From the IMG/VR virus record IMGVR_UViG_3300043467_000863, positions 1-23,880 of that record: a DNA stretch of 23,880 nucleotides; one strand, 5' to 3'. Positions 2,352-12,326 of the stretch are shown one piece after another. Positions within the stretch are counted from its first letter, which is position 1. Each line of letters starts with the position of its first letter. The DNA is from a virus. The position numbers were made by a program, and so were the translations under genes. The notes beneath the pieces were generated by a model. It did no database searches. It saw only the letters and a list, made by a program, of their open reading frames with translations, and had not been told where the DNA came from.

Positions 2352-2398
2352 CCCCTTCCGGTACTAGGTAACAAGCCTAGTCCGGAAGGGGATTTTTT
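2352..2398 (+). terminator. Rho-independent terminator after the capsid gene
   Basis: The 5' arm CCCCTTCCGG-T-ACTAGG (2352-2368, T2362 bulged) pairs with CCTAGTCCGGAAGGGG (2376-2391) across the loop TAACAAG, giving a 16-bp GC-rich stem. A run of six T (2393-2398) follows one base later. The 42 bases before it are AT-rich and hold no gene. The 3' arm also carries the only purine-rich Shine-Dalgarno candidate for the next gene (GTG 2399), so the element may control both termination and translation. Confidence 0.88.
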
Positions 2399-3022
2399 GT
2401 GCGCAAACAACACGACACTTGCACTTACGAGAACTGCGGAAGGCCCCACAAAGCGCGGGGGTATTGCCAGACGCATTACACGCAGCTCAAGCGCAACATA
2501 TTGCCCGTCGGCCCAATCAAAACCCGAGTAAGTGTCAAGCCCGATGAGTGCGTTGAAGACGGTTGCCACGATCCGGTGAAGGCCAAGGGTCTGTGTAAGA
2601 TGCACTATCAGCGCACGTTGCGGCACGGGCACACGCGCTATACGGATCGGAAGAAGGCGCCCCGCGATTGCATGATCGGCAGTTGCGACAGCCACGTGTA
2701 CGCCAGAGACCTGTGCCACGCGCATTACCTCAAGCAGCGAAAGTGGCAGTCATTTGGTGTGGACGCCGGTCGGTACCAAGAGATGTTGGCTGAACAGAAT
2801 GGCGTGTGCGCCATTTGCTCGCAACCGGAAAAGCACTCTGATAGCCAATCTGGGAAGCTGAAAGACTTGGCCGTCGATCACGACCACAAGACGGGCGTTG
2901 TCCGCGCGCTTCTGTGCTCGGCCTGCAACACCGCGCTGGGCCTGTTCAACGACGACACGGCGCTTCTCGACGCCGCAAAAGCGTACCTTCAGCAGCATCT
3001 AGCCACCGCACCGCAGACGTGA
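2399..3022 (+). CDS. HNH / endonuclease VII-type nuclease with three N-terminal Cys-His fingers
   Basis: A DNA-cleaving enzyme, probably a free-standing homing-type nuclease. The only possible start is GTG 2399, because the frame is closed by TAG at 2378 and the first internal ATG is far downstream. The 207-residue protein has three copies of CX4CX9CX2H: C8-C13-C23-H26, C51-C56-C66-H69 and C91-C96-C106-H109, about 40 residues apart. These probably bind zinc and DNA. The C-terminal half carries the nuclease: C137-A-I-C140, the active-site segment VDHDHKTG (159-166) and C173-S-A-C176-N177, the pattern of recombination endonuclease VII-like HNH enzymes. Insertion between capsid and other virion genes is typical of mobile phage nucleases. 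A role in packaging or Holliday-junction resolution is possible but less likely given the position. Confidence 0.88.
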   Translation: MRKQHDTCTYENCGRPHKARGYCQTHYTQLKRNILPVGPIKTRVSVKPDECVEDGCHDPVKAKGLCKMHYQRTLRHGHTRYTDRKKAPRDCMIGSCDSHVYARDLCHAHYLKQRKWQSFGVDAGRYQEMLAEQNGVCAICSQPEKHSDSQSGKLKDLAVDHDHKTGVVRALLCSACNTALGLFNDDTALLDAAKAYLQQHLATAPQT

Positions 3023-3070
3023 TAAAGCTGCCGTCGCTATAGCAGCACCTCTTCGCGAAGGAACACACAA

Positions 3071-3517
3071 ATGTCTCAGACTACATGGAGCGGGCCACTT
3101 GCCTCCGGCGATCGCCCGGCTGGCTACTCGGGTGGCCCCAATCTCGGCTTCGTCGTACTCAGTCAGACGATGCTGATCAGCCGCGACGCCACGCTCGTGC
3201 AGAGCGCCACGGTCAACCTGCCGTACAACTCGCAGATCATCAACATCCTTTGCGATGTGCTGACGCAGTACGACAGCGCGACTTCGGCCACGGTGTCTGT
3301 CGGCACCACCGCCGGCGGCACGACCTACGCCAGCGGCGTCAACGCCAAGACCGGCGTACGCGTGACCCCGACCTTCACTGCGGCGCAGCTCGCAGCGATG
3401 GCCAGCACGGGTTCGACTGGCCCGGTTGTGGCGACCGTCACCTCTGTCGGGCAGCCTGCTGTCGGTCAGGTGCGGGTCACCGTTACCTACGTCCAGACGG
3501 CATCGTCAACGGACTGA
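3071..3517 (+). CDS. Putative beta-rich virion protein (148 aa)
   Basis: Starts at ATG 3071 with AAGGAA (3059-3064) upstream; a 10-base palindrome CTTCGCGAAG (3051-3060) overlaps this site. The product is 148 residues, very rich in Thr, Ser, Val, Ala and Gly and almost free of charged residues after the first 50. The opening MSQTTWSGPLASGDRPAGYS is followed by alternating beta-strand-like sequence, with regular polar loops such as SATVSVGTTAGGTTYASG. It has one cysteine and no signal peptide. Composition and place between capsid and adaptor genes suggest a surface-exposed head or tail-attached protein. I do not recognise a named family. It resembles the next gene in composition only; I see no clear shared motif. 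Confidence 0.75.
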   Translation: MSQTTWSGPLASGDRPAGYSGGPNLGFVVLSQTMLISRDATLVQSATVNLPYNSQIINILCDVLTQYDSATSATVSVGTTAGGTTYASGVNAKTGVRVTPTFTAAQLAAMASTGSTGPVVATVTSVGQPAVGQVRVTVTYVQTASSTD

Positions 3518-5958: not shown

Positions 5959-6945
5959 ATGGCATTCTCCTACACCGTATCGCAGACAGTCTTCAACACC
6001 GGGCGCGTTATCGATAACGCATTCCGGCGCTGCCGCATTCCGGCCGCGATGATCACTGCTGAGTACATCGACATCGCCAAGGATCAGCTATACCTGATCT
6101 TCGGCGAGCTGGCGAACCAAGGCACCCCCCTGTGGTGCATCGAGAAGCAGATTTACCCGCTGTACGACGGCATCGGCGACGTCACGACCGACACCGGCAC
6201 GGTGGACATCCTGAACAGCAACCTGCGCTGGCTTCAAGAAGTCTCAGGTGCCAATTACGACGGCCCGACGTTCCGCTCGGTGGACTTCTCCAACGCCACC
6301 TTCGTGACGACCGTGGGCATCTTCTGGACGGCCGCGTCAGTGCCGATCTCGCTGCAACGCAGCGACGACAGCGTGACGTGGACCACCATCCAGACGGAGA
6401 CGCCCAGCGCCGTCGCCGGGCAGTGGACGTGGTACGACCTCGACAGCAGCGTCGCGACGCAGTATTTTCGCGTGCTGGCCACCAGCGGCACGCTGAACTT
6501 CAGCCAGATTTACCTCGGCAACACGCCCACGGAAATCCCGCTCGCGCGCATCAACCGCGACGACTACACGAACCTGCCGAACAAGAGTTTCCAGTCCAAC
6601 CGGCCGCTGCAATACTGGTTCGACCGTCAGGTCAACCAGCCGGTCATGCACCTGTGGCCGGTGCCGAACTTGCAGGCGTCGACGTATCAGATCGTCTTGT
6701 GGCGCCAGCGTTACATCATGGACGTCGGCACGATGACGCAGGAAGTCGAAATCCCGCAGCGTTGGTATGAGGCCATCGTCGCCCTGCTCGCGACCCGGCT
6801 GGCCCTTGAGGTTCTCGAGGTTGACCCGCAGCTCGTGCCGACGCTGAACGCGCTGGCCGACAAGGCGCTGATGATTGCGCAGATGGAAGAGCGCGACAAC
6901 TCGCCGATGATGATCCAGCCGAACATCGGGCCGTACACGCGCTGA
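5959..6945 (+). CDS. Adaptor-like (P22 gp4/T7 gp11-type) tail protein with inserted beta domain
   Basis: Starts at ATG 5959. The 328-residue protein begins with a helical block (residues 1-60, FNTGRVIDNAFRRC, then AEYIDIAKDQLYLIFGELAN) followed by WCIEKQIYPLYDGIGDV. Residues about 95-190 look like an inserted galactose-binding (F5/8 type C, discoidin-like) domain: VGIFWTAASVPISLQRSDDS, the strand-rich WTWYDLDSS and RVLATSGTLNFSQIYLGN. The C-terminal part returns to a helical fold with VEIPQRWYEAIVALLATRL (about 265-285). Helical ends around a beta insertion and a late IPQRWYEAIV helix fit head-to-tail adaptor proteins of podoviruses. I infer a role in the connector below the portal, with the insertion exposed to the outside. 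The exact family is uncertain; a tail-attached decoration protein is the alternative. Confidence 0.6.
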   Translation: MAFSYTVSQTVFNTGRVIDNAFRRCRIPAAMITAEYIDIAKDQLYLIFGELANQGTPLWCIEKQIYPLYDGIGDVTTDTGTVDILNSNLRWLQEVSGANYDGPTFRSVDFSNATFVTTVGIFWTAASVPISLQRSDDSVTWTTIQTETPSAVAGQWTWYDLDSSVATQYFRVLATSGTLNFSQIYLGNTPTEIPLARINRDDYTNLPNKSFQSNRPLQYWFDRQVNQPVMHLWPVPNLQASTYQIVLWRQRYIMDVGTMTQEVEIPQRWYEAIVALLATRLALEVLEVDPQLVPTLNALADKALMIAQMEERDNSPMMIQPNIGPYTR

Positions 6946-10400: not shown

Positions 10401-11277
10401 GCTCAGTGGTGTGCTTGGGTCCATGATTTTTCAGACCGAGAACTCGTCTGCCGTTTTGACAGATGTAATGACCCTAGACAGCAGCGGTAACCTCGGGATC
10501 GGGACGAGTGCGCCAGCGTATCGGTTGGATGTTAAACCAGCCGCCTTTGCCGCTGGCACGGCGTTAGCCCCGGCGATAAACATTACGACCGCAAACAGCG
10601 CCGGTTCCGGCAATACGTCTCAGGGCGCGCTAACTTGGCAGACGCCGGGCGGCACCAGAGTTGCGTCGATCAACCCGTCCTTTGACGACCCAAGCGCCAC
10701 GTTCCGCACGTCGATGGCTTTTTCTACAAGCGACTTGGGCGGAACCAACACCGAGCGTATGCGCATCACCAGCGACGGAAACGTCGGGATCAACAACACG
10801 CCATCAGGAACTTACAAACTAGAAGTCACAGGCGCGGCGTATGCCTCGTCAATGGTTCTCGGGGCTGCGCTGCCTGTCGCCAGCGGTGGCACAGGCGTTA
10901 CGACATCCACCGGCACCGGCAGCACAGTGCTATCGACGGCCCCCGCACTGTCGGGCGCGACGCTGAACGATGGATACACGGAGGAGGTGTTTGCCGTCAC
11001 AGGCACGACCCCTGCGCTGTCACCGACGAATGGCTCCATCCAGACTTGGACGCTCACCGCGTCATCGACGCCGACTGCTGGGACATGGGCCGACGGGCAG
11101 TCTATGACGCTCATGATTAACGATGGCACAGCGTACACCGTAACGTGGACATCGCTTGCGGTGACATGGAAAACAGACGGTGGGGTCGCGCCGACGCTGA
11201 ACTTGACGGGCTTCACGGTCATCCAGCTTTGGAAAGTCGGTTCGGTGATCTACGGCGCTCGGGTGGGTAACGCCTGA
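7492..11277 (+). CDS. Long repetitive tail fibre protein (1261 aa) with C1q-like domain
   Basis: GTG 7492 overlaps the previous stop (GTGA). The N-terminus, PTNLIPTRITQLPEYVG, is a common virion-attachment opening of phage fibres. Residues about 55-460 are Gly/Thr/Ser-rich repeats such as GTGTVNGISLTGTVT and LPVANGGTGQTTYTDGQLL, expected to form a trimeric beta-fibre shaft. Residues about 468-625 form a C1q/TNF-like jelly-roll (YWGSFWDTTTQ, VTFIHAGVYSLTFSAQL, ANIWIRKNGVDVP, YIELIWSTND). Residues about 635-712 form a small beta module (RLVNSSVNYMDGVITAYSG). Further shaft repeats and RMRITSDGNVGI-type motifs follow. The C-terminus, LNLTGFTVIQLWKVGSVIYG, is a tip or trimer-end module. I see no S74-type chaperone. 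This is a receptor-binding fibre; host target unknown. Confidence 0.85.
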   Translation: MSNVPTNLIPTRITQLPEYVGTSTLGYMPYVIDGRTFKVQFTNIAAVGAVPSTRVIATGDGLEGGGDLSQDRTLSIIPHGVGYSQLDFTGAIAGTYGSADTIPAVTIDATGRVLSIVDTPVVLANYVPTSRTVAAGAGLTGGGQLNNDITLALDPSNATPQPLGAASAGIGLLAAREDHVHPAVDLTDTTETQGVLPLGRGGTGDAISPVVGAVIYADNDSLNQTVAGNAGQLLTSAGGAGAPFWQTLVAGSGIVISQGSGTITIDASGGGTGTVTSVSGTGTVNGISLTGTVTTSGSLTLGGTLSGVDLTTQVTGTLPVANGGTGQTTYTDGQLLIGSSTGNTLAKATLTAGSGITITNGPGSITIDATGGGTGTVTSVGLSGGTTGLTATSSTTNPITSSGTFTLGGTLAIANGGTNGSAVPTAGGVAYGTGTAYAVNAAGPAGYVLTSGGTAPPVWTPVASLAVGTEAYWGSFWDTTTQTAATANTAYALTLNSADVENNGVTIVTGSRVTFIHAGVYSLTFSAQLANTDNSNTAHIANIWIRKNGVDVPASDSKFTVPGKFGTLQGAVIGTVNFVLPLAASDYIELIWSTNDTSLAVASFPAGTTPVSPVVPSIIFTAVAAAPVGLGYAGVESLTSLTVGTGSRTFTVNTNATDTAFIVGNRVRLVNSSVNYMDGVITAYSGTSMTVLVDGTAGSGTYTAWFVTLTGSVGGVTSFSGNSTGLTPSTPTAGDIALAGTLNVANGGTGQTTYTDGQLLIGNSTGNTLAKATLSAGTNVSITNGAGAITINATDQFVGTVTSVGGTGTVNGITLTGTVTSSGSLTLGGTLSGVSLTTQVSGTLPVANGGTGVTTSTGTGSVVLSNTPTLVTPILGAATATSIALPNSISLTNPSAETLLINAAAATATMRFRVAGDDRITITAAGDVGIGTSAPAGRLEVSGGDLGLRGGKLFIGPTVGGNGACAIRGTLSGVLGSMIFQTENSSAVLTDVMTLDSSGNLGIGTSAPAYRLDVKPAAFAAGTALAPAINITTANSAGSGNTSQGALTWQTPGGTRVASINPSFDDPSATFRTSMAFSTSDLGGTNTERMRITSDGNVGINNTPSGTYKLEVTGAAYASSMVLGAALPVASGGTGVTTSTGTGSTVLSTAPALSGATLNDGYTEEVFAVTGTTPALSPTNGSIQTWTLTASSTPTAGTWADGQSMTLMINDGTAYTVTWTSLAVTWKTDGGVAPTLNLTGFTVIQLWKVGSVIYGARVGNA
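8302..8590 (+). repeat. Fibre shaft module, copy 1
   Basis: Encodes GTVTSVSGTGTVNGISLTG..., then LPVANGGTGQTTYTDGQLL and the STGNTLAKATL segment. Closely related modules, with many silent differences, are found again in this gene at 9721-10050 and in the second fibre gene at 18880-19210. They could support recombination within or between the two fibres. Confidence 0.75.
9721..10050 (+). repeat. Fibre shaft module, copy 2
   Basis: Holds the same two sub-blocks as the module at 8302 but in swapped order: the TTYTDGQLLIG-STGNTLAKATL block first, then GTGTVNGITLTGTVTSSGSL and LPVANGGTG. This order is also that of the copy in the second fibre at 18880, suggesting the copies were exchanged as blocks. 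Confidence 0.75.
10771..10900 (+). repeat. Module shared with the second fibre gene
   Basis: Encodes GNVGINNTPSGTYKLEVTG, AAYASSMVLGA and LPVASGGTG. The partner at 18778-18910 has almost the same protein sequence but differs at many third codon positions, so the copies are old or were acquired separately rather than recently duplicated. Confidence 0.78.
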
Positions 11278-12326
11278 TGCTGGCTGATAAACTTCGCGCT
11301 GCGGCGGCGGTTCCGGCTGCGGGAGGTGGGCAAGAGTATATTGCTGTAGCGCACTCGACTTCACCATACATCACCACTTACCCATGGAGCGGCAGCGGCT
11401 TTGGCAGCAAGTTTGCCAATCCAGCAGCGTATCCGGGATTTACCGCAACGGGCGTTGCGTTTACAGCGACAGGTAGCGCCATTGCAGTTTCAGATATTTC
11501 AACGCCATACGTTATCGCCTACCCGTGGAGCGGCTCTGGCTTCGGAACCAAATTTGCCAATCCGGCGACGTTGCCGACCGGCGTTGGCCGTGGCGTAGCG
11601 TTTTCACCTTCAGGCGATGCAATAGCGGTGTCACACGACACTAGCCCGTGGATAACCGCCTACCCGTGGAGCGGCTCTGGCTTCGGAACCAAATTTGCCA
11701 ATCCGGCGACGTTGCCGCCTAACGCATCAGGCGGTGGTGTAGCGTTCTCACCCTCTGGCAATGCTGTCGTTTCAACATCCGCTGGTCCGCCATACGTCTC
11801 TGCATACCCATGGAGCGGCAGTGGTTTTGGAACCAAATTTGCCAACCCGGCGACGTTGCCAACTGGCTCTGGCCGTGGCGTAGCGTTTTCACCTTCTGGC
11901 GCTGCAATTGCTGTGGTGCACTTTACGACACCATTTATCACTGCCTACCCGTGGAGCGGCAGTGGTTTTGGAACCAAATTTGCCAACCCAGCAACCTTGC
12001 TTACAGGCTATAGTAGCGGCGTGGCCTTCTCGCCTTCTGGCAATGCAATTGCTGCGGCGCACGGCACGACGCCATTCGTCTCGGCGTACCCGTGGTCAGG
12101 CAGCGGCTTTGGCACCAAGTTTGCTAATCCGGCGACGCTGCCGACCGACACCGGCAACGGCATAGCTTTTTCGCCTTCTGGCAATGCAATTGCAGTAGCA
12201 CACACCACTACACCATTTATCACTGCCTACCCATGGAGCGGCAGCGGTTTCGGCACAAAGTTTGCCAATCCGGCGACGCTGCCAGTAGAAACAGGACGCG
12301 GCGTAGCTTTTGGAGCAACACCATGA
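11277..12326 (+). CDS. Seven-repeat beta-propeller protein, probable receptor- or glycan-binding (349 aa)
   Basis: ATG 11277 overlaps the fibre stop (TGATG). After a 20-residue Ala-rich leader, the whole protein is seven repeats of 47 residues (one of 48). Each has the core (T/S/I)AYPWSGSGFGTKFANPA, then LPTG..(R/S/N), GVAFSPSGNAIAV and a strand such as HTTTPFI. The start EYIAVAHSTSPYITTYPW lacks the first GVAF strand, while the end GRGVAF supplies it, so the ring would close by the usual velcro between the two termini. Seven WD40/YVTN-like blades are the common propeller number. Differences between blades cluster in two loops (after LP, and the H.TTPF segment). No signal peptide. Next to a fibre gene, it is probably a tail-tip or fibre-attached binding protein. 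Confidence 0.85.
   Translation: MLADKLRAAAAVPAAGGGQEYIAVAHSTSPYITTYPWSGSGFGSKFANPAAYPGFTATGVAFTATGSAIAVSDISTPYVIAYPWSGSGFGTKFANPATLPTGVGRGVAFSPSGDAIAVSHDTSPWITAYPWSGSGFGTKFANPATLPPNASGGGVAFSPSGNAVVSTSAGPPYVSAYPWSGSGFGTKFANPATLPTGSGRGVAFSPSGAAIAVVHFTTPFITAYPWSGSGFGTKFANPATLLTGYSSGVAFSPSGNAIAAAHGTTPFVSAYPWSGSGFGTKFANPATLPTDTGNGIAFSPSGNAIAVAHTTTPFITAYPWSGSGFGTKFANPATLPVETGRGVAFGATP
11337..12326 (+). repeat. Seven tandem 141-base repeats (propeller blades)
   Basis: The TAC-CC(A/G)-TGG codons for YPW fall at 11379, 11520, 11661, 11805, 11946, 12087 and 12228, a spacing of 141 bases with one step of 144. The stretch coding for SGSGFGTKFANPATLP is nearly the same in each copy at DNA level, which points to recent amplification or ongoing gene conversion between blades. 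Confidence 0.92.

Follow-up and report, generated by a model that had tools for sequence, protein, structure and literature searches.

How is a nuclease gene expressed when it follows a capsid gene so closely that its ribosome-binding site (RBS) lies within a terminator-like hairpin between the two genes? This question is raised by an IMG/VR phage fragment (IMGVR_UViG_3300043467_000863, positions 1 to 23,880; hereafter the window, 23,880 nt in all), whose closest cultured capsid relatives are the Caulobacter phages RW, KcrB, RLK, and GB2A (87.8% protein identity). On its + strand the window carries a major capsid protein gene (1395–2309), identified by a profile match to Phage_capsid_4 (PF25209) and by tblastn relatives annotated as major capsid protein, followed by the gene of a free-standing 207-amino acid nuclease (2399–3022, +), the GTG of which is the earliest in-frame start following a stop codon. 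The nuclease combines N-terminal zinc-knuckle-like Cys/His repeats with a C-terminal Endonuclease_7 domain (PF02945; residues 116–198, E 5.8e-21), and D160, H161, H163, C173, C176, and N177 are invariant among nine members of its family, as expected of conserved metal-binding or catalytic residues. The next virion gene (3071–3517, +) has a homologue directly behind the capsid gene in siblings that lack the nuclease. Elsewhere in the window, a 349-amino acid ORF (11277–12326) is built of repeated YPWSGSGFGTKFANPATLP units and encodes a propeller-like repeat protein, and a − strand ORF at the contig end (23180–23872) consists of long, near-identical tandem units, which may represent a + strand repeat-rich gene or an assembly edge.

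RNA spanning positions 2330–2430 folds with −38.3 kcal/mol, compared with −22.5 ± 3.2 in 200 shuffles (z −4.9), and forms a hairpin at 2352–2391 (+) with 17 pairs, in which the 5′ arm (2352–2361 and 2363–2369, T2362 being bulged) pairs with the 3′ arm (2375–2391) across a loop at 2370–2374. Folding and coordinates confirmed that, as the first-pass annotation of this DNA had claimed, the Shine-Dalgarno sequence (SD) GGAAGGGG (2384–2391, +) is inside the 3′ arm and the GTG comes right after a T run (T6, 2393–2398, +). The best SD window, GAAGGGGA (2385–2392), is located in this arm 6 nt upstream of the GTG. The annotation had also proposed that read-through RNA carries a sequestered ribosome site, as in T4 homing endonucleases. 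Both the proposal and the comparison gain support, since a stable hairpin pairs with the endonuclease SD and the window SD has a mean unpaired probability of 0.13 when the 5′ arm is present, rising to 0.63 when this arm is left out. The overlap of hairpin and SD is not a matter of chance because the same layout recurs with different stem sequences in 24 distinct leaders (see below). The hairpin was absent from the list of a simple terminator scan, whose rules (short loop, bulge-free stem) would in our reading exclude it, and an Rfam search of the window and six loci gave no matching family.

To which of the two genes the hairpin belongs was analyzed by comparing the DNA that follows the capsid stop codon in capsid-anchored relatives. 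The nearest siblings (L008–L010; 98% capsid protein identity, 89% to 91% DNA identity) lack the nuclease and have a different hairpin, GGGGGGCTTCGGCCCCCC; the gene directly behind it is homologous to that following the nuclease in the window. We therefore rejected the idea that the hairpin is older than the nuclease and, with it, the earlier suggestion that the nuclease had settled downstream of an existing capsid terminator. In 9 relatives with the nuclease (L013, L019, L023, L028, L030, L033, L048, L050, and L051), the 3′ arm of the hairpin adjoins the nuclease start codon. Among the nuclease-less relatives examined, the same hairpin, the presence of which the first-pass annotation had named as evidence against a joint origin, was found only in L049. 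This locus (2912–3100) is a deletion derivative that keeps the leader hairpin and the ATG and has lost most of the nuclease, a C-terminal piece of which is still in frame. On the capsid tree, presence or absence of the nuclease changes 8 times, at least 6 of which are forced by well-supported branches, although this count is approximate because some of the contigs scored as absent end soon past the capsid gene (L011, L035). In all members checked the nuclease gene lies behind a capsid gene. Such scattered occurrence at one site flanked by conserved genes is characteristic of free-standing homing endonucleases, and the nuclease therefore probably homes. Bacterial genomes searched for close nuclease relatives contained none, and gave nine distant matches only. 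Altogether, the presence of the hairpin follows that of the nuclease, which makes it a component of the nuclease cassette, standing where siblings have another hairpin.

To characterize this leader in the family, we used a protein scan in which the leader was not a condition and which yielded more than 50 nuclease relatives with 48% to 76% identity to that of the window. Their leaders, together with four from other searches, gave 40 distinct sequences, 24 representatives of which were analyzed. The inspected leaders of complete relatives end in a hairpin, an SD arm, and a start codon. RNAalifold on a MAFFT alignment of the leaders returned no consensus pairs because the arms are too diverged to be aligned by sequence (mean identity of the 5′ arms and spacers 49%, minimum 12%), and we therefore measured covariation without alignment, by comparing the pairing of each 5′ arm with its own and with foreign downstream arms. 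Pairing with the own arm averaged −23.2 kcal/mol, versus −10.7 kcal/mol with the arms of divergent members, and the own arm was preferred in 23 of the 24 leaders. Since the stems have strongly diverged and are still complementary, this indicates that the stem is under selection.

The invariant or nearly invariant columns of the leaders lie mostly outside the outer stem: a TTG located 57 to 61 nt before the start codon, and TAGGNTACA at the loop. These elements are always 17 nt apart, in the pattern TTG-N17-TAGGNT, which resembles a σ70-like promoter. In the window, the putative −35 hexamer is TTGCAA (2342–2347, +), the TTG of which is invariant in the 24 leaders; the spacer (2348–2364, +), which holds most of the hairpin 5′ arm, has exactly 17 nt in 24/24 leaders; and the −10-like hexamer is TAGGTA (2365–2370, +), a degraded form of the family consensus TAGGAT, as in L111, or TAGGCT, which is followed by ACA. 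TTGACA occurs in some distant members, as in TTGACA-N17-TAGGAT (L242) and TTGACA-N17-TAAGAT (L243). Column information in the 24 leaders amounts to 2.0 bits for the TTG and 1.53 for the −10, versus 0.67 for the spacer. At the registered position, promoter scores averaged 8.1 of 12 in this family (family 1), compared with 5.7 ± 0.2 in shuffles, as judged by a σ70-like consensus that may not be that of the host. Because single leaders mostly score no better than shuffles often do, the promoter case rests on the conserved register, and the window copy, with 6 of 12, has the lowest score of the family. A DNA pattern scan for the promoter motif plus a T-run gave 35 contigs, of which those that also have a matching hairpin precede genes of this nuclease family, and the remaining ones look like chance matches.

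From the position of the −10, transcription of the nuclease's own RNA is predicted to start about 7 nt past this element, at 2374–2378 (+) in the window. A start there would lie within the loop or at the very beginning of the 3′ arm, and the own RNA could therefore not form the stem. In the family, the mean SD unpaired probability is 0.06 in read-through RNA containing both arms and rises to 0.59 when the RNA begins at the predicted position. Motif and register of the putative promoter, whose RNA would be without the 5′ arm, are conserved in the family, with a degraded copy in the window, where the damage to the −10 implies that self-expression may be weak.

We consider it likely that the nuclease gene carries a mobile expression leader of its own, the 57 nt upstream of the GTG, in which a single hairpin works as a switch. 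The capsid message, reading in from upstream, would have both arms, so that the stem would form and bury the SD, and in the window copy this RNA would presumably also end at the T-run; late read-through would then yield little nuclease. Within this DNA would also lie the σ70-like promoter, with the −35 just before the stem, the spacer mostly in the 5′ arm, and the −10 reaching the loop. RNA started at this promoter would lack the 5′ arm and leave the SD open, allowing the nuclease to be expressed independently. Such timing would have the probable benefit of keeping nuclease levels low during capsid synthesis. The view that the hairpin silences the nuclease therefore holds for the buried SD, but silencing is not simple: with a conserved promoter-like pair inside the hairpin it becomes a choice between read-through RNA with a hidden site and own RNA with a free site. 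The first-pass annotation had named a transcription start between the hairpin and the GTG as an observation that would speak against it, and the family alignment predicts that transcription begins between the hairpin arm and the GTG.

A plain reading of the locus is that an intrinsic capsid terminator happens to have an SD-like arm beside the GTG, and that the nuclease is unregulated. In the window, a GC-rich stem is indeed directly followed by a U run (2352–2398), in line with the earlier claim that the hairpin ends the capsid message, and most nuclease-less relatives also have some hairpin behind the capsid gene. However, the hairpin tracks the nuclease and not the capsid, a terminator has no need of a conserved TTG-N17-TAGGNT, and the T-run is not conserved: in distant members (L241, L242, L243, L247, L251, L252, L253, and L254), the stem, the SD arm, and the start codon are present without it. 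We regard this reading as very unlikely. The retention of stem and buried SD without a T-run indicates that termination is an optional part, and the core of the cassette is accordingly defined, from these comparisons, by the predicted promoter and the RBS hairpin, the T-run having apparently been added or kept in the subclade that contains the window.

Sequestration of the RBS alone, which was the view of the first-pass annotation, would leave a trickle of translation from read-through RNA and make TTG...TAGGNTACA another kind of element, for instance a protein-binding site. The modest promoter scores of single leaders and the degraded −10 of the window agree with it, but it does not account for a constant 17-nt spacing across an otherwise unconserved arm, for the pairing of TTGACA with TAGGAT or TAAGAT in the distant members, or for the near-consensus pairs (10 to 11 of 12) of a second nuclease family described below, and we judge it unlikely, if less so than the plain terminator. 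More improbable than either is that the inverted repeat acts as DNA, with the nuclease binding it as an operator or as a cruciform. The Endonuclease_7 domain would fit recognition of branched DNA of the T4 endonuclease VII type, and I-TevI of T4, which represses its own promoter via an operator site (PMC2988022), is a precedent for autorepression. Against this, the stems are highly diverged, with spacer identity averaging 0.49 and falling as low as 0.12, while most of the nucleases share 48% to 76% identity with that of the window. The promoter-like blocks are therefore the only constant sequence that could be recognized, and an SD placed in the 3′ arm speaks for a role as RNA.

Related designs have been described in phage T4, where gene 49 (endonuclease VII) has a structured initiation region. 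The same is true of T4 genes e and soc (PMC3014915, PMC2988022); the long early RNA of gene e forms an inhibitory stem, and late promoters in its 5′ strand give stem-less RNA (PMC3014915). These are resident phage genes, whereas the window nuclease is probably mobile, and no terminator role has been described for the e leader. Closer to our case, the late promoter of T4 I-TevI is so placed that late RNA misses sequence of the RBS-hiding structure (PMC2988022), and similar arrangements have been reported for I-TevII, I-TevIII, segB, and Aeh1 mobE (Edgell, Gibb, and Belfort 2010, PMC2988022). The window leader shares with these an RBS hidden in upstream RNA and, as predicted here, an own promoter positioned so as to leave the 5′ portion of the hairpin out of its RNA. 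It is found in different phages, belongs to another nuclease family, and follows a capsid gene; it also differs in the terminator tail that the stem has in the subclade including the window, and in the promoter: the T4 endonuclease leaders use phage middle or late promoters, and here the 5′ arm is the 17-nt spacer of a putative two-element σ70-like promoter. By reading, none of the listed leaders contains the T4 late promoter TATAAATA, a conserved −35 element being present instead. Internal intrinsic terminators are tied to the free-standing homing endonucleases mobE and segF next to host genes (PMC2988022); unlike that of the window, they lie within the coding sequence itself, and no overlap with an RBS hairpin is described for them. 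In a literature search that covered few subscription papers, we found nothing on a combination of promoter, RBS hairpin, and terminator outside T4-like phages. With such a leader, a selfish gene could adjoin one of the most heavily transcribed genes of a virus and yet stay out of its message, a single short sequence serving to end the neighbour's RNA, hide the read-through ribosome site, and start an RNA of its own. T4 achieves hiding and own start with phage promoters, while the design here would use a host-like one and could therefore occur in many ordinary phages; it is also small enough to serve as a switch that responds to the position of the RNA start.

Scanning all loci, we noticed a second nuclease family with an HNH_3-like N-terminus and Endonuclease_7 (L107; relatives L291–L316), whose genes follow another group of apparent capsid genes (six loci with upstream DNA viewed). 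In their leaders, which lie about 80 nt upstream of the matched sequence, a promoter-like pair is placed around the 5′ arm. Near-consensus pairs occur in L292, L293 (TTGACA-N18-TATGAT, 11 of 12), L315, and L316; the mean promoter score is 9.0 versus 6.7 ± 0.2 in shuffles, and the SD unpaired probability rises from 0.05 in read-through RNA to 0.70 in RNA from the predicted start. By common cut-offs, the nested switch was detected in 9/27 members of family 1, 13/20 of family 2, and 18/963 other ORFs, although the SD is buried in 26 of the 27 members of family 1. A leader common to all Endonuclease_7 genes was rejected, the only genes to pass among 39 others being 3 misfiled members of the two families. 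Since no further Endonuclease_7 gene in this survey has the nested layout, it is a trait of certain families and not of the fold.

GIY-YIG genes behind the capsid gene in L053 (2643–2717) and L062 (5930–6004) have TAAAAT or TAAACT at the loop, and SD exposure increases from read-through to short RNA from 0.03 to 0.54 and from 0.10 to 0.89, respectively. For the capsid-adjacent gene of the cultured Caulobacter phage RW, with its leader at about 6985–7043 of L002, it increases from 0.22 to 0.81; in phage GB2A, too, this gene is preceded by a comparable leader. These three loci were picked by inspection and do not represent a blind test; by reading, the GIY-YIG leaders of L034 and L039 do not have the nested layout, and L269 and L258, which appeared nested by eye, were discarded because the SD became no more than slightly or moderately better exposed. 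We tentatively suggest, with somewhat less than even confidence, that unrelated classes of genes behind the capsid (zinc-knuckle plus Endonuclease_7, HNH_3-like plus Endonuclease_7, and GIY-YIG nucleases, and a DUF723/CapR protein of cultured Caulobacter phages) have repeatedly acquired the same leader, a host-type promoter in an RBS-hiding hairpin that in some lines is also the capsid-message terminator. This would be a convergent expression cassette of selfish genes outside T4-like phages, and the comparable leader behind the capsid in L002 makes cultured Caulobacter phages accessible to direct testing.

Further leaders were observed beside these loci. A non-nuclease gene of 308 amino acids in L155 (1660–1780) has ACTCCTTGCGT and ACGCAAGGAGT around the SD and TATACT overlapping the 5′ arm, and possibly uses the same promoter-in-hairpin arrangement. 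The virion gene behind the capsid gene or the capsid-adjacent nuclease has a conserved structured leader in L207 (about 3106–3170), L232 (about 3110–3175), and L056 (about 5966–6035), and also in L054, L060, L075, L081, and others; it was not seen in the window and had no Rfam match in the loci searched. This leader combines an outer stem and an inner hairpin with base pairing of a pseudoknot-like type, such as ATGCACA/TGTGCAT or ACATGC/GCATGT; it ends at the SD and shows visibly compensating changes. The nuclease ORFs of L013, L028, and L048 extend into it.
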